Origin: Chiridota heheva
Lineage: Eukaryota; Echinodermata; Holothuroidea; Apodida; Chiridotidae
Length of the DNA: 64,000 nt
Reading direction: 5' to 3'
Assembly: GCA_020152595.1 (NCBI GenBank)
Contig: JAIGNY010003269.1
Span: 62,001 to 126,000 of the forward strand
The notes under the pieces were generated by a model. That model saw nothing but the letters and a program-made list of their open reading frames with translations. It was not told the origin of the DNA and did no database searches. A program made the position numbers and the translations under genes. Below, in pieces: positions 11,655 to 55,439 of this stretch (within the stretch, counting starts at the first letter, position 1; every line of letters begins with the position of its first letter).

Positions 11655-14600
11655 TTTCAAGTCATTTCTGAAGGCGGGACCCAAATTGATAGCAGTGATA
11701 GCTCCCTTACAACTGGGACTGGGGGTTCAAATGCACCATCACTTTCGATCAAGGTTTTTGATAGACAGTCTGTCTGCCATGGGCTATTGCTCCTCATATA
11801 GTAAAGTGCAAAGCTTTGAGGAAAACGCCGCTTCTTCAGTGGCTCCTGATGTTTTAGGTGAGGACAAAGATATGCATGATATAATGCTTTTATTTTCCGC
11901 GGATAACGTTGACCACAACATAATGACCCTGGATGGATAGAGAACATTTCATGGTATGGGGATGGTAGCAGCCATAACACCAGGCACACGAACCAGTCAC
12001 ACTATTCCGAGGAGAAAGATGTCTGACTTTAACATAGTTGATAAGACGAAGATTGAGATCAAGGATTACCGCTTCCCAAAGAATACTCTTCGTAGCATTA
12101 AGTTTACGTCTCTGCCACTTTTGAATGTTGTTGATCATAAGATTGATGTATTGTGGGAGATGTCCTTCGCTTCAAGCAAACACTACCAAATTGGCAAGGA
12201 GTGATGCACCTGCTACACAAGGACTGTCTCCACCCTGGACAATCATCAGTATTGTTCCTACCAATGATTGATATGAACCCTAGAGATAAGACATGCATCT
12301 TCTCTACACTCGACTATATATGTGCTCTTGCTTTCAAGCACAGTGTCCCACCAATTGTAACCTTTGATCAGCCACTCTTTTAGAAAGCTTCTGAGATTAT
12401 ACATGAAGTTCAAGATGGTAGTCCACTCAGAGATATTATTTTCTTATTGAGGAGCTTTCATACTTTAATGAATTTGTTGGGGGCCATAAGAATACTCATG
12501 GGTGGAAGTGGACTAAGGGAAATCCTGGAGACAGTGTATGGTGATAACGCTGTAACACATATGATGAGTGGCAAAGCTGTGCAACGTGCATTTCGTGGAC
12601 ATCTTCTTGTTAAGCAGTGTCTCACGCATCATATAGTGACCAAGGTAATTGAAGCCGATCCAAGTTTTGAAGATCTACTTAAAGAGCTGGAAAGATTGTA
12701 TTCTCAAAAGGAGACTGGTAAAATAAGTTTAGATGCACTGCTGAAAGCAGACTGCATGGAAAGAATTTCCAATGCTCTCACTTCATGAAAGTGTGAATTA
12801 TCCAACAACTCAAAAACAAGCAAATTGTGGATTAACTATCAACGAATGTTGGGAGTTGCACAGGAGCTTATCAAGGCTGATCACACAGGGTCATGGCAAA
12901 TGCATCTCCATGCTATATACAGTATGACTGAATGCCAATATTTGCTGCTGCTGGACACCCTAACTATCTGAAGTCTGCTTATCTTTACTTACAGAAGATG
13001 AGGGATCTTGAAAGTGAAAAGTCCCCAGTGTTTCAGAAATTCAAAAATGGATTCCATGTTATTTGACGCAGCAAAAAAAAACTGAGTTGGCCTAAGTCCT
13101 GACTTGGTGATAGAGCAGACACTAATGCGGTCGCTTAAAATCACCGGTGGGCTAACAAGAGGAAGTGGCATGTCAGACCATCAGAGGGCCGTTTGGACAA
13201 TATCTGTCCCTATATCTTCCGCCTACAACTACGCCATGCAGGAATTCTGTCAGACATCATATGCAACAAGTGAACAGCACAAGGAGGCATCTGCTTTTTG
13301 TATGGACAGGGATATGAGAGACTTAGACAAAGTTGCGTGAAGCTGGAACACTATTTTCCATTTTCAATGAGGCAACCTTGCGCAACATTATCACAGGGAT
13401 AAATGCTGATGAGGGTGTCAATGTTGAAGAACTTTTCAATGTAGGCAGAGACACAGTAAAACAAATGGAAAGACACCCAGTTTTCTCATATTCCCACAAA
13501 AAGAACACTAAAGTGAAGACATTAGCATCAGCTCAAGCTGTCAAAGTTACAGAGGATCGAACCATTGATCCAGCTCTATTGTTTCAGAGGTTCCTTGTGG
13601 TATCGCAGTCAGGTGACCTTTGCCTTGATGAAGTGATGCAATATGAGCTCTCCACCTATCCACCATCCTTATTTGAAGGAAAGTATCTCTTTCGAAAACC
13701 AGATAAAGCACTTCTTCTGGAAGCTTTGAAAGACCATGGCACTTCCTTATCAGATGGTGCTGTTCTTTAGTCCATTCTAAAGACTGATCACTATGTTCTT
13801 GACGGAGCTTCCCTCCTACATCAATTGAAATGGACCGAGAGGAGCACTTTTACTTCAATTGCAGAATCGCATGCATCTTTCACGTCCGAACTGTATGGTA
13901 ATGCTACTGTTGTCTTTGATGGGTACAATGGAAGACCATCCACAAAAGACAACACCCACCAAAGACGAAGCCGAAGTCAGGTCACCAACAAGGTCGATAT
14001 TGTAGAGTCAACCAAATTTTCTGGAAAAAAAGAGGATTTTCTTTCAAACACAATGAATAAACAGGCCCTTATTAACCTGATGACGAAATACTTGCGCCAG
14101 AAAGGCTGCAACGTTATTCAGGCTGATGGTGATGCTGATGTCGATATCGTAAAAGCAGCAATCACAATGGCATCCTTCAAATCAACAACTCTCATCGTGG
14201 AAGATACAGATCTTTTGGTTTTGCTCTTGTATTATGGAACCACGAATGACTGCAAAGACCTGTACTTTAGATCAGACAAAGGTAAAGCAAATGTGTATAA
14301 CATTAAAGTTCTGAAACTCTTACTAGGGGAAGAAGTGTGCTCTGATCTGTTGTTTGCCCATGCGTTTTCCGGATGCGACACTCACGGAGGGTATATCTTT
14401 AAGTTATGGTGTGGATGTGTTCGGACGGTGGCATGGATCCTACAGACTGGGGCTGGAGTGTAAAAGGGGGTCAACTGATTCCACTCATGATGGACAAAAG
14501 CCCTGCTCCTGAAAGTCTGTTGAAAATGACACACTGCAACTGCTCGACAGGTTGCCGCACACTCAAATGTAGCTGCAAAAAACATGGCCTTGAATGTACC

Positions 14601-18149: not shown

Positions 18150-18745
18150 TATATAATAATAATAATAATAATAATGAATACTTGTTATGCGCCAGTATCC
18201 ATCAATAGTGATGCTCATGGCGCAGCGACACAACAATTAATGCAAAACAATGTGAACAAAAAAGAAATAATAGTTAAGAATACTGCAAAATACATACATA
18301 CAAGAACAAATATAAGCTTAAAATTGAACAGAATCAGAACACATGAGGATTGCTTTAATGATGATTTAAAAGAATTGAGGGAAGGACTAAGTTTGATGTT
18401 GTCTGGAAGTCTGTTCCATAAAAAGGGGGCAGCAGAAGAAAGTGAACGTTTACCCCATGTTCTAGAAGTACGTGGAATAGCTAATTGAAGTTTGAAATTA
18501 GAACGCATGGACTGGTGTGGAGACTTATATGGGATTAAAAGATCAGAAATATATGTGGGAGACAATGCATTAGTAGACTTATACACAAAAACAAGTATTT
18601 TAAAAACAAACATATGATGAATGGGTAGCCAATGTAAATTCCTTAAAATGGGAGTAATGTGTTCATTTGGTTTACTTAGAGTAACATCCTGGCAGCAATA
18701 TTTTATAAGCGGGAGAGACGTTTGATTTGATTGGCTGGGAGACAT
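18150..18745 (-). mobile_element. CR1/L2-like non-LTR retrotransposon, 3' end with (ATT)n tail
   Basis: This is a 5'-truncated retrotransposon on the minus strand. It carries the last part of the reverse transcriptase ORF (18215-18745), a short 3' end and a microsatellite tail, seen as about eight ATA/AAT units on the plus strand at 18150-18174. Microsatellite 3' tails rather than poly(A) are typical of the CR1/L2 group. Truncation lies at about 18740. Confidence 0.8.
18215..18745 (-). pseudogene. CR1/L2-like reverse transcriptase C-terminus (5'-truncated)
   Basis: An uninterrupted 176-codon minus-strand frame contains EHITPILRNLHWLPI, FKILVFVYKSTNALSPTYIS, then LAIPRTSRTWGKRS, SSAAPFLWNRLPDNI and SLNSFKSSLK. 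These are the ordered hallmarks of the region downstream of the polymerase core in CR1/L2/Rex1-type ORF2 proteins. The endonuclease and catalytic domains are missing, so it is a truncated insertion. The frame is still open, so the insertion is younger than the frameshifted copies at 7.6-7.9 kb and 39.8 kb. The first Met is incidental; the real ORF would begin kilobases upstream. Confidence 0.85.
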
Positions 18746-19110
18746 ATAAAAAAGAGTTACTCATATCAAGGCGGGAAGAGACAAAAGCATGAACTCAGTT
18801 GTTCAGTGGCAGGCAATGTTAAATATATACTAGCCTATGTGTTTATGTACAGTACCTGTATGGACCTGTTGAATCATTCGGCTGTTAGTCTTGTAGTTGT
18901 GTCTTTTTTCATTTATTTCTGAGTAATTCAAAATCCTTTTTGCGTGAAATAAAACTTTCAATTGCATTAGAGGTAAGATTTTCATGAATTTCATTTCAGT
19001 TATTGAATAACTCTGGCGTAAAATTTCATATGCTATATGCTATATTTTTACAACGCAGGTACAACATATGTCGTAAGAAATTTAAGCCATAGCATACTAT
19101 ACAACAAATT
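18746..19110. other. Non-coding stretch
   Basis: No recognisable feature lies between the retrotransposon tail and the tandem array. Confidence 0.5.
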
Positions 19111-45597: not shown

Positions 45598-45874
45598 TTA
45601 AAGAGGGCATGACATGGTCATCGATTTTGGCTAAAAACTTAAAATAATAACTTCTAGTAATATAAAATCACATAATTATAATACCAATTCCGAAAAAATA
45701 GTAAAAATTGGTGCAAATATCGAGAGAAATATGCAGCAAAATCGCTTATAACGCTTCGTAGCTAACGATGAAAATGCTTGTCACGTGACAAATAAGCCTG
45801 TGAGCGTAACTTCAGGCGTAAGGCAGAGCTGGCTAGCCACTGGAGACACATAAACACTGTACTTTCTTGCGATA

Positions 45875-47796
45875 ATGGCGACGGACAAAGGCGTTCTTCC
45901 TGTTCTTCGTCTGATAGCGAAATAGATCTTGTATTATAATGTTCTTCCTCAAGTTTTGATGAAGGAGAATGGAATGATTCTGATGAAAATGAAGAGGTAG
46001 AAGGTGAAATTATCGGCCTTGCCCGTACCAATTTGAGCCGGAAGGCGATGCACAGGAGGCTGAAGAATTCGACCATGTTCGCATCGAGAGACTCCAACAA
46101 ATTGTTAATAACCTACATGGTGAGATACTTTTTTTGATTATGCGTGTTTTGAGATGGGTGAAATTTCTCAATTCTTTTGGCAAAGATTAATCCCCCTCCA
46201 TAATGAAAATTGAAACCCTGGGTTAGGTCAAGAGACAGTGAAGCCTCGTATAGTAGTTTTGCGAGAATTACTTTGCGAGAAAAAGTTTTTGTTTGGTAGG
46301 CGAGGCTGGGCCTAATAGTAATACGTAGTAGTAGTGGTGGCACTAGTACTAAATGCTAGTCCGAGATTTCTCTGAAAGTGAGTTAGGCATCCATTTTTGA
46401 CATTTTGCACACCATCAAAGCTAGAGGAATCTCGAGCTAGTACTAGTAGGCCTAGTACTTGGCCTGGTTATTATACACATCCCTCAGTACTGTTGTTATT
46501 GGGATTGCGTCATTTGAGGGTTGTCATGTACTATTAGGTGCAATTCTTATGTTTTTAAAAATTCACACGTAGAAAATTGATGAATGAAAAATAACTAAGA
46601 TAATTAACGTACTAGTAGTACCGTCGGACTAATCCAGCCGTGTTATTATGGCTGCCGTTGGTGATGGCTGGCTGTCCAAGGGTACTACAAAATCCTATAC
46701 CCTCCTCAGCTCCTGTGCTGTTTTCAGCAAAGTGTAAAAGTATAGGAAGATCTCAGTTTTAAGATCTTTATGAAAATGAAACCATTTTACCTTTTTCTCG
46801 CCTACAATGACCAGAATCGATGTTTGAAGCCCATCCATGTCTTCAAAAACTGTTTTTAAAGTGATTTTAGTTACTTTTTCAAGTATTTTACACTACTTTT
46901 CATTCCGTAAAAATTGTCTGATGAGCTCTCCAAAGTATGGTCAAAATTCAAAACACTACCATTGGGGCTATAAGATTTTAGCGGGGTGATATGTTTGAGA
47001 TTATTTGAGGATAAAATTAAGATAATACATATAATGTAGTACAATTAAATAAGCTAAACATTTCTTGATGTTTTATTTATCTGTTTTGCAGTTTTTAAAT
47101 TTATTTTTATACTAATACGATTCAATTAAAAATGATGTATAGTGACGGTTTAAGATCTTTCCCATTTTTTAAAATTTACCTTAAGTGGGTATTAATTACA
47201 AAGCATCTTAAAATTTTCCATCCAAGTATTGTTTCATATAACCCTTTCTTGATTAAGGTCATGGCTTTTTATTGTCATTTCTTGGGAGGTACAGCTCCTT
47301 GAAAGGTCAAATTTTCTTTTCTCTTTCAATGTTTGTTTGAGAGGGCAGATCCTGAAGCCCAGCATTCATTAAAAAAAGGCATGTTGTACTTTACCATACC
47401 ATACAAAGGAATATATCATTTATTTCAGAGACATGAAAAATTATCATTTTATACAGTACCTAAAAACCACATATATAGGTCAATTTCCTTTGCATTGTTG
47501 GCAAAGATACCATGGGATGAACATGAAGGTTCATACTGATGAAAAGAAAAATGGGATTCATTCAAGAAGTTATTTCATTGTTCTTTTGTTAATGCTTATT
47601 TTCTTTTTGTATCTCCTCAGATGATACTGCATATCGGCAACTGGTAAGATGGTGCAGGGACTATCTTGGCAAACACAATTGTGTAATTCTACCATCATGT
47701 GCTGTGCTAAAAATCAGAACTACATTTTAATCTGAAGGACATGTTGGGTTTAAATACCCTGACTGTTATTTTGAGACTGACTCCTGTGCAGTGTGA
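45875..47796 (+). pseudogene. P2RX7_C-like domain protein, two exons, disrupted
   Basis: Exon 1 (45875-46119) has an acidic Ser-rich stretch, then after one frameshift the hallmark PYQFEPEGDAQEAEEFDHV. It ends at CATG before GTGAGA, a good donor. Exon 2 (47621-47796) starts after TATCTCCTCAG and reads AYRQLVRWCRDYLGKHN, then LPSCAVLKIR and GFKYPD, as in the C-terminus of P2X7-receptor-tail-like (P2RX7_C) proteins of invertebrates. The splice phases agree: exon 1 leaves one base and exon 2 supplies two. An in-frame TAA interrupts exon 1 near 45937, and another lies at 47728-47730. The usual Cys-rich middle is not seen. No channel domain is present, so it is not a P2X receptor. It is likely cargo of the surrounding TTAA element. 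Confidence 0.6.
46120..47620 (+). other. Intron of the P2RX7_C-like pseudogene
   Basis: It is bounded by GTGAGA and a pyrimidine-rich TTTCTTTTTGTATCTCCTCAG. I found no middle exon carrying the WCxCGxC-type zinc-binding segment known from other family members. No other feature is seen. Confidence 0.5.
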
Positions 47797-48514
47797 TTTA
47801 GTATTTCTTGGAAGTGCATCCTTAAAAATACTTGTTTTATTTGAAGATGTAAAAGTTTTGTTTTTTCGTGCTTGCCTGGCGAAGTTTGCCCCCCAAAAGT
47901 ATTTACTTTGAAGTTTCAGGTGCTAGTGTTGTAACATTAGAACAGTAATATTGTTCAGATAATTACACTACAATGAATCCGAAAAGCACCAAATTAGTTT
48001 AATTTTTAATGATATTTGTTGAAAAGCTCTTGCATGTTTTATTATGTGATGCTATTACTGTTAAACCTCTGCCATATCAATCAGTGTATACCCCAAATTA
48101 CCATGCTAACTGGTTTAACCTTTCGATATACAACCTAACCTTATTGAAATGAAATAAATGAACCAATAATCTCCTCTCCAAATGTTCACCACATTGTATT
48201 TTTTGATATACTTTCTGCAGGGCTTAAAATACATTTTGTCATTTTAAAAGTTCCTTTTGTTTTATGTTTGTTTTGCTTTACTATAATTTTGAGTAGAAAT
48301 GTAGGTTCAATGCAAATTCTCCATCAATGGCAGAGGTCAGTGCAGAAGATACTGGGTTTGAATATTCCAATTTCCAAATGGTACTGTTGTATTGCCATTG
48401 TCCTTGAGCAGCTTTTGAGCAGTTCACTCAGCTGTATATTGGTTCCAGCTTGTAAGGATTCAACCAGCTAAACATATTGCTGAGGTTAGGTCATGAGATA
48501 ATGATTAAGCCCTG
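47797..48514. other. Non-coding stretch
   Basis: No gene or repeat is recognised. Confidence 0.5.
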
Positions 48515-48522
48515 GATTGAGG

Positions 48523-49110
48523 CAGTGGCGTAGCGAGGCAGTGGCGTGGCGAGGCAGTGGCGTGGCGAGGCAGTGGCGTGGCGAGGCAGTGGCGTGGCGA
48601 GGCAGTGGCGTGGCGAGGCAGTGGCGTGGCGAGGCAGTGGCGTGGCGAGGCAGTGGCGTGGCGAGGCAGTGGCGTGGCGAGGCAGTGGCGTGGCGAGGCA
48701 GTGGCGTGGCGAGGCAGTGGCGTGGCGAGGCAGTGGCGTGGCGAGGCAGTGGCGTGGCGAGGCAGTGGCGTGGCGAGGCAGTGGCGTGGCGAGGCAGTGG
48801 CGTGGCGAGGCAGTGGCGTGGCGAGGCAGTGGCGTGGCGAGGCAGTGGCGTGGCGAGGCAGTGGCGTGGCGAGGCAGTGGCGTGGCGAGGCAGCGGCGAG
48901 GCAGTGGCGTGGCGGGGCAGTGGCGTGGCGGGGCAGTGGCGTGGCGGGGCAGTGGCGTGGCGGGGCAGTGGCGTGGCGGGGCAGTGGCGTGGCGGGGCAG
49001 TGGCGTGGCGGGGCAGTGGCGTGGCGGGGCAGTGGCGTGGCGGGCAGTGGCGTAGCCGGGTAGTGGCATGGCAGTGGCGTAGCGGGGCAGTGGCATAGCG
49101 AGGCAGTGGC
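48523..49110. repeat. 16-bp minisatellite CAGTGGCGTGGCGAGG
   Basis: About 35 copies lie in two blocks: GAGG-type (to about 48902) and GGGG-type (48903-49053), separated by a truncated unit at 48890. Degenerate copies at the right edge recover the GTAGC form. Long Trp/Arg/Gly or Pro/Arg/His frames across it are artefacts. Confidence 0.95.
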
Positions 49111-49149
49111 AATGAACAATTACACTAATTCTACCATTTCATTTGAGTG

Positions 49150-49280
49150 GCAACAAGGGGGCAGGGCTCTGAAAGGGGGAAGGGCCTCTGAAAGGGGGTA
49201 GGGCCTCTGAAGGGGACAGGGCTACTAAAAGGGGGAAGGGCCTCTGAAAGGGGGAAGGGCCTCTGAATGGGGCAGGGTGC
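49150..49280. repeat. Short G-rich minisatellite, about 20-22-bp unit
   Basis: Six imperfect copies of a CCTCTGAAAGGGGGAAGGG-like unit sit between the 16-bp array and the right end of the hAT-like element. Confidence 0.85.
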
Positions 49281-49313
49281 AAGCCCTCTGCCCGGCTACG
49301 TCCTGGAATGAGG

Positions 49314-49799
49314 GCAAATCTTTGGTTCCAAATCATTCCTTGGATTTTGTTTTCGACTACAGTAACTAAACTTTAGTCGAGGATAAGGCAACCCCTAAAT
49401 CGACTTTATGGCAATTTTAACTCCTGGGTTCAGTCCAGAGTACATGGGTAATCTTGAAATGTCTTGCTTTATTTAAGTTTGTGTTGTCCTCAAACAAAAT
49501 CAGGCTTGTACACCTTTGATCCTCCAAAGGAATTCAATAATTGTACAAAACCATCAAGCCGGTGTGAGTTGGCTTATCCAGGCCTGAGGTGCGACTTGAT
49601 TCCATCATCCTCCCTGCATTCATATGTGCTTATTACCTTTGACAAATACTGTATAAAGGAAAAGAACATCGGTGACATGCCCTTCAAGGAAATATATATT
49701 TTACACAGCAAATGAAGTTCATCAACTTGGAAGAACATTTCAGACAAAATTACTGATCAGTTGTCATATTGTATTTGTTTGTACACAACCCTCCCTTAC
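49314..49799. other. Non-coding stretch
   Basis: An 83-codon frame (49464-49715) has no recognisable domain. Nothing else is seen. Confidence 0.45.
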
Positions 49800-50195
49800 G
49801 GAACTCCATAAGACTCCTATATGAAGCATAGCGCTAAGCTATAGCCTGCATAGCAGATGCCAGTCTCCTGCGACCGGGACGGAAGTGAATGAACACCGGG
49901 TTATTACCCTACTCTTTTCGAGAAGTGTTCAGAGAAGCAAGTAGGGTGTGACTGTCCTACCATCGGGACCGGCGGTTTAACGTCCTCTCCGAAGGACGGC
50001 GAGCACCATACAATCATTGCCACTTTTTCAACAGCTGAATGAGGAGCAGGAGCTGCAAATGATGTACTTGTGCTTTGATGATCGGGCGTATCTGTCTGCA
50101 TAGCTGTGGAAAAACTGGTCAGACTTGTCCAAAGCTTGAAGGCGGGAAGCTCCAGCATCTTAGTCGTGTGCTCTACCAACTGAGCTACCTGACTT
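49800..50195 (-). mobile_element. tRNA-derived SINE, about 390 bp
   Basis: The minus strand starts near 50195 with GTCAGGTAGCTCAGTTGGTA and GAGCAC, a near-perfect tRNA A box/D arm. The B box region (GCTTTGGACAAGTC) is degraded. The body includes GGAGAGGACGTTAAACCGCC and GTAGGGTAATAACCCGGTG, GC-rich words unlike the surrounding DNA. GGACGTTA also occurs in the 29.5-kb SINE. Shared internal SINE domains of this kind exist in several animal families; I do not name one. The 3' end and target duplication were not located, so the left limit is approximate. Confidence 0.65.
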
Positions 50196-50459
50196 CTAAT
50201 TGTTGTTATGCAAATCTCAAAATTAATATGAACAAAACACTATTTATCTTAGTAATCTCACCACATCCTCACTACTTTAAGAAATATATAAACAAGTATT
50301 TTAATTGTTATGCTAATTTAAATTAACACAGAACTCACAATACTAATCTACAAGGTCTAATGCCTTAAATACCTGCCCGGCAAGATTTGTGAATGTACAT
50401 GTAGAGTATTTATTACTAAGTAATGAGCAAGGTCTAACATGCAAATAACCTGCTTAATA

Positions 50460-50965
50460 TACCAACACCACACGGCCCTACGCAAGAGGTATCAGAGATA
50501 CATATGCATATAGGCTAATAAGTATGCTTTCCCCCTTCATCATGCTAATCTGTACATTACCAACTTCATCTAACCTTGAGGAAAGTTACGTGAATGTAAA
50601 CATTTTTAACTGGCTTACTGTATGTTGTGATCTCGGATTAAACATTTCACAAGAAAGTATATTGTTATGCAAATAATTCAATTAAATGTGCACATACCTC
50701 ACCATTAAGTGTGAACAATGCTCTTCACACATATATATATATATATATATCATTTGTGTTAGCAAAATCCCACCCAACCCACCTTAATTTAAGAGATATC
50801 ATAGACACAAATGTTCATTGATATGTAAATAAGCTAATTAGTATACATACACAACCCCAAGCATGCTCCTCTGAACAGTACTAATGTCTTTTACCCATGT
50901 GCCAAGTTACATAAATGTACACTATTCTTAACTTATGTTATGAGCTCAGTTAAAACATTTGTAGA
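50460..50965 (+). repeat. Two diverged direct copies of a roughly 300-bp unit
   Basis: Matching blocks appear in order near 50486 and 50790, for example GAGATACATATGCATAT against AGACACAAATGTTCATT, then TAAGCTAATTAGTATAC-like words, CATGCT, AAGTTACRTGAATGTA-like words, and TTAAAACATTT. Divergence is high. A short TA run (50730-50750) lies between them. Confidence 0.45.
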
Positions 50966-51198
50966 TGCGATGATGACCACGACATGAAAAACTTTTCAAC
51001 TTTGACACAACTTTTCAATTTTGACACAACTTTTAAACTTTTTCTGAGCTACGCACTCTTGCGATATACAGTTCCACTGAGAATATTCAACAGCTAAATA
51101 TGAAACTAAAATGAGACTTTTGCCATAGTTCGATCAATAAATATAGTTGGAACATGGTCCACCACTATTTCTAGTATGCAAATAACACAATCTGAGTT

Positions 51199-51373
51199 CC
51201 TCAGGTCTTCTAAACCTTGTCATTTGCCGCTGCAGGGCTTCTTGGCGTGAGGGTTTCTGCACAGTGCTTGTCAAAGGTAGTGGTGGTAAAGATAACGTGC
51301 TTGTCTGCTGCTTCAGGACTTGTCTCCTGTCCCAACGGCGTTGGTTACTTCACTGAGAAGCTCATCTACATAT
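51199..51373 (-). pseudogene. Possible exon on the minus strand, unidentified
   Basis: Minus-strand TTTTATTTATTTACAG (ending at about 51374) looks like a splice acceptor. It is followed by a frame reading AYVDELLSEVTNAVGTGDKS. Another frame later reads QKPSRQEALQRQMTRFRRPE, with stops between them. I do not recognise the protein. It lies on the same strand as the THAP remnant and downstream of it, so it could be a decayed exon of the same transposase gene. That is inference. Confidence 0.3.
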
Positions 51374-54300
51374 GCTGTAAATAAATAAAAGTACCTTTAT
51401 GATCAATAAATGGAAAAAGACAAATATGATCTACAGGCAAAGTCAAAGGTAATTTAGGAGGTTACATTGAATAAGTTGAAGCAGCATTGACACTACGGTT
51501 AAAAATTGGGCGGGCAAATTTCCCCCTTGTGTAATTTTTGGGGGGAATTTGAAAAAAAGGGGGATTTCTTTTTGGAGATATACCAATAAAGGCCTAAGGA
51601 TACCACCGGAAATGCCAAACTATGGCTGTAAAATGCCAAAATCTCAGGAATCAGTAGACAAATTTGCATGCAAATTTTGTGATGTATTACAGTAAGGATG
51701 CCACACTGAAAAATGAAGTTTAAAGGAAGAAGTTTTAAGTAATATACCATGAAAGAACACAATGAAAGAAACACAAAACACCAAGAATCATCAAAATCGG
51801 TCAAAGGGAATCCCAAGATATGACTAAATGAAGTGCTTTTGTTTTAGTCACTTATTTGAAGCGTTTCCATGGCAACGGAAATGCAAGATATTGACAATTT
51901 GTAAGAGTACCACACTTAATAAGCATTATGTAAGTCAATAAAACTTGATTTATTATGAAGTATGAGCCACATGCTTTCCAAACAAATGAAAATCAAGCCT
52001 AAAAGGTTATTAATCAATGTTTTTGGGACCTCAAACATTGTTCCATTTAAATCTAAAACACCTAAACGGTCATTCCAATTTGCAATAATTAGAAGTGTGA
52101 AATCTCTATGTTCAATAATCCATAACTTTTCAGTCTTGCAAGGTATGGACTTCAAACTTGTGGAGGTTATAGATACTTGCCCATAGAATATGAATATGGG
52201 CATTTACAGCACAAAACAATTTCATTCAGTTAATTATTAATTAACAAAATTGATGATTTCTTAACTTGAGCATAATATCGAATATAGACAGAAAGTCATG
52301 CAATTATTCAAAATATGCTTTTATGAGATCTAAGTACCATGTAATTAATTTATTTTATTTTCTATTGCCCCTGTGATGCTAGAAAGCAGTTTAATTACTT
52401 TTAATTATTGTTAATTACTGTTATTTAGTACATTATATATATACTATACACATGAACACATATATACATGTACACATAACACACACATTATATATACACA
52501 TATACTCTATGAGCAGTGATGAACATGCATTTTTATGAAATAAAGTGTTAGCACAAGCTGATATCCTCAGTTTACACTTGTGACCATTAGTTCAGCTGCA
52601 TATGGACCTTTTGAAAGGCCCTATCCAGTCTTGCCACGAGGAGGCTGATCACATGAGACCATTACTCATTTGCTCTAATATGTTCTGCAAATTGTTTTCT
52701 TTCCATTTTCTAAAGTTTTCTTAACAAACAATACATACCGTTTTGACAATAAGGACAAGTATTAATACAAAAACATGTTTAACCCCAAGATCTAAAGACA
52801 AACTTCAACCCCCACCCTTAAATCCAGAACCATTCCCGTATTGATTTTGAAAACACCAACCTCCCATTTCCCCCCAGCCGCAACACAAATTAAAACATCT
52901 TCCTTCTCCAACCCAGCACTTTCACAATAGGGGCCAAGACTTCCCCCTTTTCTGGGGTAGTAGACATACTGCAGGGGGACCAGGGCCTAAGGTTGACCTT
53001 TGTAATGTTTAAAAATTACACATAAAATATAACGACAAATTAATTTACAATTTGGGCATATGAATTTACTGAAAAAAATGATCTAGCACCAGGGCCTAAT
53101 TTATGCTTAGTAATTTAAAAAATGATTCAAGTGATTATTAATTACACCTAACAAAGTGCACTAGGTGTGATACTAAATTTGAACTTGTAAAAATGTGTAC
53201 AAATTAAGCCATAAGCAAAGCTAGGGTAGCCTAACGTAGTAGGCGATTGCTTCGTAACATTAGGCTAGGCTATTATTGTACTCTGTTTATGTTATGGCCT
53301 ACACAGTGACTTAAGCCTGGCCGTTCTACAAAAATATAATTTAGAAACACTTTGTTAATGAAATTCCATTACTAAGTGAATCCATCAAATTTTAAAATAT
53401 ATTGCATTACCCGTTTTATTCACATAATAACAAACATGTATACTAGTTCCACTATTTATAGAAAGACATTTTGTTCATACCCACCAACTTTGACATCAAT
53501 TTGCGATCTGGAACCAATGAGACCAATCTAAGTTATACATATTTGGAAAGCTGAGAAAATGTACTTCTTAGTTCTATATGCCCGATTTGAAATCTTTTTC
53601 TTTTAAAAAATGATAAAAACCTTAATTTTCATTTATTATTTAAAAATTTATCGCAATTGAGTTTTATCTTGGGCATATATCATTTTAAAGCTTAAAATTT
53701 CATTTTTACTTGAGAATTGCTTTTGCATTTCTTCACTTTGGATTAGTAACAAAACCTCTTTTAATAATAGGGTTTTCCCGTTTATCGTGACACACACTAT
53801 TGCATAGCAAACTGGTCAACAGATCAGCGAGACGACCGGAAAGTAGCGTTACAAAATCGGCCGATATTTCATTCAATCGAACACATAACACACCATCGTT
53901 ACTCAATTTTGATACATTAACATCATTTTTGTAATGTGAGTGGATTATTTTGTGTTCAATTGCTACTTTTATTGAAAATAATGACTTAAATGTTCGTTTT
54001 TTCGAGTTGACTATTGTTAAAATTTCATTAGGCCAAAATAGAGGGCGCGGATTCTGAAACAAATTATTGATGAAATTTGGTATACAGTGGCAACGCTAAT
54101 TACAGGGCGACCTTGGTATATATTTTCTTATGTAAATAACTTCCCGGTCATACATCATAAATTTAGCATAAATTAGATATTGATTAAACATTAATCAAGT
54201 CAAAAGCTAACAGTGCTAATTTCAAAATCCACAACAGATCTTATCAGATTTTAATGCTTTTTCAGACAACCACAAAAAAAAGAAAAAAAAAAAGATTTTA

Positions 54301-54469
54301 CTAAGCTCTCCCTACACCACAAAAAACGCAAATAATAAATTCACTAAATTAATATGAGCTTACTGTAAGTAGGTTCCACCAATCAACAGAAATGCCGGGT
54401 CGACTAACGTCAGGTCCACTGGTTGGAGTAGCATAACAAGTTAGGTTAGCAGTAGCACTTGCCATGGCT
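51374..54469. other. Interior of the TTAA element, no recognised coding
   Basis: No transposase catalytic segment was recognised. A 109-codon minus-strand frame (53733-54062) and a 105-codon frame (51499-51816) have no domain that I know. TA/CA-rich simple sequence lies at 52430-52510. Confidence 0.45.
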
Positions 54470-54850
54470 GACGTTGAACTTGAGGGTACATCTTTAAGAC
54501 TAATTCAGTAATTGTTTCCTTCTTGATAGTAAGAAACTTTCCCGGATTGATGCTCCTAATTTCTTTGCCAGAAACACTCCCCAAGCCGAACTGTTGCGAA
54601 GCCTTGCAGCAGATTCAAAAGCGATCTTCAGTGAAGTGATCGCTACAAATTACACTGTGTTGTGTAGGCCCTAGGCTTAGGCCTAGCCTAGGCCTTTTTA
54701 AGTTCTAAAATCTGCACGGGTATCTGGTATTGTTTACAAATGCTATTGCTATCCACACTTTTTTCGTCCATTGGAAATTTATGGATGCTAATTCCTTTCC
54801 GAGAAACATTAATACACCCGCCTACAATATATCAGTAGGCCCTACGGCAT
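54470..54850 (-). pseudogene. THAP-domain remnant of the TTAA element
   Basis: From about 54850 leftward on the minus strand, frames give VGGCINVSRKGISIHKFPMD (start of a THAP finger with its phenylalanine-proline). After degenerate sequence, ICSDHFTEDRF appears at about 54651-54619, the second zinc-binding half of THAP. A shift at about 54619 leads into ESAARLRNSSAW. The order and spacing match one THAP domain of about 90 residues, with several lesions. THAP sits at the N-terminus of Kolobok and P transposases. The gene points inward from the right TIR, as expected for a transposase. Confidence 0.65.
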
Positions 54851-55161
54851 TTTCGAGAAAAATCTCGAAGAAATCGTGTTGTTTTTGATCAAAGATTCAG
54901 TCTGGACTTAGCGTTAGCGTAGGTTTTACACTGACTAAAGCAAGGCGATAGTATGGGTCATGTGACATGTCTGCCTGAAGTTTCGTCATTCGGTCACGTG
55001 ACCTCTAGACCTATTTTTCATAATCAATTTTAAGGAGGGAATTTTAAACGTCGATTTTACGCTTTCGAGATCTCTTGTCACACACAAAAATGTTCATTTC
55101 GAGAAGTAATATACCTAAGCTTACCAAAGAGAGCAATTTGTTTGACCATGTCATGTCCTCT
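54851..55161 (-). other. Upstream region and right end of the TTAA element
   Basis: Minus-strand sequence between the TIR and the THAP remnant contains paired CACGTGAC and CATGTGAC words (54960-55005), comparable with GTCACGTGAC at 45780 inside the left end. It may hold promoter or transposase-binding sites. No gene is seen. Confidence 0.4.
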
Positions 55162-55439
55162 TTAAAATAATCTTTACAAGATTCCATTTTATTACTATCC
55201 TGACATATCCAAAAAAAATTAAGCCACAAAATTGAAGGACAAAATATGATAAGAATACATAAGAATATGAGGAATCTGAGGCTGTGATGTCACAACTAGT
55301 CTGATTTCAGTGGTTTCTACACAAATGATACCAAACTTCAAACTTCATCTCTTTAATGGAATAAGATTTTTGAACGCTTTCTTCAGCATTTGTTTCTTTT
55401 GAAGTCTTCTTTGATATTATAGACCCCTGAACTAATTCT

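Follow-up and report, generated by a model that had tools for sequence, protein, structure and literature searches.

The segment 45602-55161 of the window (the whole 64,000-nucleotide stretch of DNA that was analyzed) is very probably (roughly 0.92) a dead, non-autonomous copy of a Kolobok transposon family that encodes KolX; its placement in the Kol0 lineage is provisional. That the family is Kolobok with KolX is held with high confidence. Kojima and Bao (2022; PMC9587614) described Kol0-lineage Kolobok elements that encode a transposase and a second protein, KolX, which resembles the C-terminal ballast region of P2X7. In the sections of that paper at hand, P2X7 is proposed to have arisen by fusion with KolX (the origin of its ballast domain), and ballast-like proteins known across diverse animals are identified as parts of Kolobok elements, a point said not to have been made previously. 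The preliminary description of this DNA had regarded a P2RX7_C protein as a new partner reading frame for such elements; that claim falls to the 2022 publication. The family itself is new and largely non-autonomous; the pairing of KolX with Kolobok and the link to P2X7 are already in print. A full-text search returned no literature naming both P2RX7_C and a transposon, and the main text of a survey of ballast domains across animals (Rump et al. 2020, PMC7016195) contains no word beginning with "transpos".

The features of the window copy are given below in order of position.

45598..45601, no strand: left TTAA target-site duplication, read in the sequence; alike in 22/22 copies
45602..45620, plus strand: 19-bp terminal inverted repeat (TIR), AGAGGG form, P2RX7_C/KolX side; exact repeat match
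45875..46119, plus strand: remnant of KolX (P2RX7_C-type) exon 1, containing CPYQFEPEG.., with a frameshift near its start; limits inferred
47621..47763, plus strand: remnant of the last KolX exon, following an AG acceptor; AYRQLVRWCRDYLGKHNCVILPSCAVLKIRTTF, then TAA at 47728-47730; end approximate
48519..49110, no strand: 16-bp minisatellite, 37.7 units of GAGGCAGTGGCGTGGC
51693..54098, no strand: later 2.4-kb insertion, bordered by ATTACA on each side and unmatched in the 21 other copies read
54525..54818, minus strand: remnant of the THAP domain exon, inward-pointing (C3102:116525-116818); one TGA and one TAG inside, plus frameshifts
55143..55161, minus strand: 19-bp TIR, AGAGGA form, THAP side; exact repeat match
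55162..55165, no strand: right TTAA target-site duplication, read in the sequence

The 19-bp inverted repeat is exact, has TTAA outside both of its arms and brackets 9.56 kb; its chance expectation in the window was 0.03, even with three mismatches tolerated. A search of the 1.1-Gb genome located the exact 19-mer at 110 sites (54 forward and 56 reverse). The reversed control pattern was found at 0 sites in the same whole-genome search, and a chance repeat was therefore rejected. Among the sites listed (100 of the 110), at least 34 inward-facing end pairs were 4.8-10.0 kb apart, with a spacing of 6.9-10.0 kb in 32 of 34. Twenty-two copies were read, namely 21 of the 34 listed end pairs (the window copy and 20 others) and an extra copy, L037, in which the right end departs from the 19-mer at one position. 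All 22 copies are flanked by TTAA on both sides, in keeping with the 4-bp target-site duplication of Kolobok elements, and the AG...CT termini agree with the 5'-RR / YY-3' rule given for Kolobok in PMC9587614. The ends served to orient 21 copies, and in these P2RX7_C lies toward the AGAGGG end and THAP toward the AGAGGA end. A 4.8-kb copy, L013 (contig C576), has the family ends and TTAA around a different interior sequence; about 340 bp of the family are retained on its left and about 450 bp on its right. These two outer pieces may thus be sufficient for transposition, to judge from L013.

The KolX and THAP genes of the window copy are both dead, with stops and frameshifts in each. KolX exon 1, which ends at a GT donor visible in the sequence itself, is interrupted by a TAA at 45937-45939; at this position, TAA is common to 17/22 copies, while GAA occurs in 4/22 and neither pattern in 1/22. 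The TAA in the last exon is an extra stop that is absent from copy L009. A BLAST search placed no KolX middle exon in the window copy. When exon 1 and the last exon were joined, P2RX7_C was matched at 22.4 bits (cut-off 23.5, E 1.2e-4) within the last exon, and Pfam returned nothing for two frames of the window near exon 1, one on each strand. The THAP exon was matched by the THAP string of L037 at E 2e-24. The preliminary description had reported a TTAA-bracketed inverted repeat enclosing 9.56 kb, with a THAP domain pointing inward from one end and a spliced P2RX7_C gene from the other. The repeat, its TTAA sites and the span are confirmed, with the qualification that 2.4 kb of the span was inserted later. 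The placement and direction of the two genes also stand, as remnants: the P2RX7_C gene is broken and without its middle exon, and the THAP frame is broken.

Some features of the window were noted in passing. A tRNA-like stretch on the minus strand (ca. 50155-50194) has the appearance of a SINE head by eye; ARAGORN reported 0 tRNA genes in the window. Outside the element, three adjacent open frames of 134-230 aa (12384-14463, plus strand) had no Pfam match above the cut-off, as was also the case for one frame at 18215-18760.

Across the family, P2RX7_C exons 1 and 3 were found in 21/22 copies (L013 has only the start of exon 1), and THAP sequence in 22/22 (partial in L013); the two sets of exons are convergent, each pointing inward from its own end. 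Among the matches to the THAP-exon DNA that were listed, 29/40 lie no more than 1 kb from a listed exact 19-mer. In 19/22 copies, 7 bp are inserted in the THAP frame. By BLAST, the complete cysteine-rich middle exon of KolX occurs only in L016 and L037 of the 22 copies, and a 58-bp piece of it is kept in L025. In L016, this exon carries the motifs CICDNC..CLCC..CVVDHPGF..VCLD, which have a counterpart in L037; exon 1 is broken in these two copies too. The three exons of L016, joined by X, matched P2RX7_C at 37.2 bits (cut-off 23.5), as would be expected of a Kol0-lineage KolX; the same string matched the P2X7 chains 9e3q and 6u9v of the PDB (E 0.0013 and 0.0047, respectively) in the last exon only. 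THAP strings were scored in the same manner: that of L037, with its frameshift bridged by X, reached 38.5 bits, and that of L009, two frames joined by X, reached 28.5 bits (Pfam cut-off 23.9 in both cases). The THAP signature was recognized by eye in relatives of the window copy (CVVGGC, ICSDH, FP, LW, CF, GKFPTI). The arrangement characteristic of a Kolobok THAP domain (C2CH, the P/W/F residues and an AVPTIF-like box) is found in L037 and on contig C1540 and is broken in the window copy. Minisatellite arrays of 16- or 18-bp units, 206-2206 bp long, are located in 18/22 copies; in the search of all 22, none was found in L013, L016, L025 or L037.

The catalytic part of the transposase was sought by tblastn, using three C763/C97 transposase queries and three C1540 transposase pieces; no catalytic match was found in the 22 copies, the window copy included. 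The link of the window family to a catalytic Kolobok transposase thus rests on C1540. The best match in the genome to the L037 THAP string is C1540:464294-464575, where a frame of 230 aa is open; its THAP domain scored 52.5 bits in Pfam (cut-off 23.9). KolX exons 2 and 3 are located on the same contig (452182-452408 and 453690-453812), on the strand opposite to the THAP exon and facing it. Downstream of the THAP exon, on its strand, C1540 carries transposase exons, the frames of which are like the C97 transposase (tblastn E 2e-25); the first parts read include GDARADSPG, TDRH and DVWH. In Pfam, the frames after THAP matched, if anything, Mutator and MULE, weakly and below the cut-off. Near the right end, C1540 shares 78-82% identity with four copies of the family, and its right terminus is rearranged. 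On this sequence evidence, C1540 is a possible candidate for the transposase source of the window family. It was not among the 17 listed matches to the C763 transposase query. The proposal that other copies of the ends would repeatedly enclose both a THAP transposase and a P2RX7_C gene, as examined by searching the ends genome-wide, is borne out for the P2RX7_C exons and for THAP sequence; no match to the catalytic domain was found (0/22). The assignment to Kolobok made in the preliminary description is upheld by the TTAA duplications, the AG...CT termini, the THAP sequence and the Kolobok-like transposase exons of C1540.

The C763 transposase open reading frame matched 17 places on nine contigs, among the matches listed. 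In Pfam, it had only a weak, sub-cut-off Mutator match; on the basis of its motifs and its KolX partner, we take it to be a Kolobok transposase. A P2RX7_C match faces the transposase at three of the nine contigs, at distances of 2.9 kb (C763), 4.3 kb (C97) and 5.2 kb (C2567); C1540 has a convergent pair in addition. For the other six transposase contigs, there was no P2RX7_C among the matches listed from two P2RX7_C searches. No TTAA-flanked inverted repeat was found within 13.4 kb around the C763 element.

The search of the genome for P2RX7_C gave 22 matches at 21 places, among the matches listed. Of the 14 places that were compared, thirteen are tied to repeated families. The places on C991, C1790, C3235, C2026, C1540 and C2397 belong to the window family or its relatives; those on C763 and C288 are 96% identical over 2.5 kb; and those on C826, C97, C2129, C1435 and C1282 (L032-L036) are copies of a single dispersed repeat, with 70-85% identity over stretches outside the exon. 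The place on C3349 was compared with seven others and resembled none of them at the DNA level.

The strongest competitor to the Kolobok reading, and an improbable one, is that the element is a non-autonomous transposon of another superfamily that happened to pick up two host genes, P2RX7_C and THAP. It would accommodate the lack of a catalytic match in all 22 copies and the six of nine Kolobok-like transposase contigs at which no P2RX7_C was among the matches listed. Against it stand the gene pairs themselves: a THAP-transposase faces P2RX7_C exons at C1540, and C763, C97 and C2567 each have a transposase that faces a P2RX7_C gene. The superfamily that comes into question is piggyBac, which also makes TTAA duplications (PMC9587614). 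It was rejected on its termini, which differ from the AG..CT found here, the latter following the Kolobok rule of the same paper; the presence of a THAP domain and the Kolobok-like transposase exons of C1540 are further differences from piggyBac.

The copies could also have arisen by segmental duplication and not by transposition, a reading that retains very little probability. Low divergence is what speaks for it: the copies nearest to that of the window (L018, L023, L024, L009 and L014) differ from it by only 0.5-1.0% over the left 1.4 kb. However, when the 180 bases beyond each TTAA were compared among the 22 copies, the sole similarity joined L011 (right flank) with L012 (left flank), which points to two insertions into another repeat and not to a duplicated block. 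No same-side flank similarity between copies was detected in this comparison, which argues for separate insertions. With their TTAA-flanked, dispersed copies and unrelated flanks, these elements thus constitute a dispersed transposon family and represent neither chance nor one duplicated block. Hardly worth considering is the last alternative, that ordinary host P2RX7_C and THAP genes happen to lie between inverted repeats: ballast-type proteins are indeed known from many animals (PMC7016195), but the same P2RX7_C exons recur in 21/22 dispersed copies, TTAA-flanked at different sites, which refutes it, and disabling changes are common to most copies.

The window family, which fits the KolX-bearing type of Kolobok, has spread recently, mostly in non-autonomous form. 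Within the majority group of 19 copies, pairs differ on average by 2.9% over the left 340 bp and by 3.0% over the right 450 bp; for 18 of the 19, the left 1.4 kb gives a mean of 3.4%. The disabling changes are common to nearly all of this young group, which suggests that it was amplified after it was disabled and was moved by a transposase from elsewhere. Thus, most copies were probably mobilized in trans, as judged from the shared disabling changes and the low divergence.

A complete element of the family would most likely have KolX (P2X7 ballast-like, in three exons) next to its AGAGGG end and, convergent with KolX, an exon-split, THAP-domain Kolobok transposase next to its AGAGGA end. The usual copies are without the catalytic part and KolX exon 2; they carry the 16-bp minisatellite and other filler and retain both ends. 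The transposase made by another copy would most likely bind these ends, presumably via its THAP domain, cut at TTAA, and paste the element into new TTAA sites.

This family resembles the Kol0 lineage with KolX (PMC9587614) in its TTAA duplications, its purine-purine start and pyrimidine-pyrimidine end, and its possession of a transposase gene (here in C1540) together with a second gene for a P2X7 ballast-like product. It differs in that its copies are without a catalytic match and mostly without KolX exon 2, in the 6.9-10.0-kb spacing of 32/34 listed end pairs, and in the minisatellite of 18/22 copies. The two genes converge here; no statement on Kol0 gene orientation was found in the sections of PMC9587614 at hand. 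A second comparison is afforded by the XKol / T2-MITE elements of Xenopus (PMC6004289, 2018); that paper lists DDE, THAP and H2CH as motifs usual in Kolobok and gives AG termini together with TTAA. They share the TTAA target, a THAP-domain transposase (THAP-DDE in Xenopus), non-autonomous derivatives, and AG termini in the ten two-ended copies of Table 5 of that paper. Moreover, a T2-MITE with an amplified simple repeat (Xmix/Xstir), mentioned in that paper, resembles the window element with its internal minisatellite. The T2-MITE ends are AGGRR, in contrast to AGAGGR here, and KolX occurs 0 times in the main text of PMC6004289.

A convergent KolX-transposase pair is present at four places (the window family via C1540, and C763, C97 and C2567). 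From this, it could tentatively be proposed, with considerable doubt, that KolX is a working partner of transposition (e.g. a zinc-binding cofactor) and not a passenger, and that most P2RX7_C genes of this genome are borne by transposons and are not host genes. With both genes dead, the window copy is silent on an accessory role for KolX in transposition. The window element opens no new kind of system. As an independent case seen across a whole genome, it exemplifies the published claim that Kolobok transposons carry P2X7 ballast-like genes, and it suggests that genes annotated as P2RX7_C in such animals may belong to transposons or be what is left of transposon genes.
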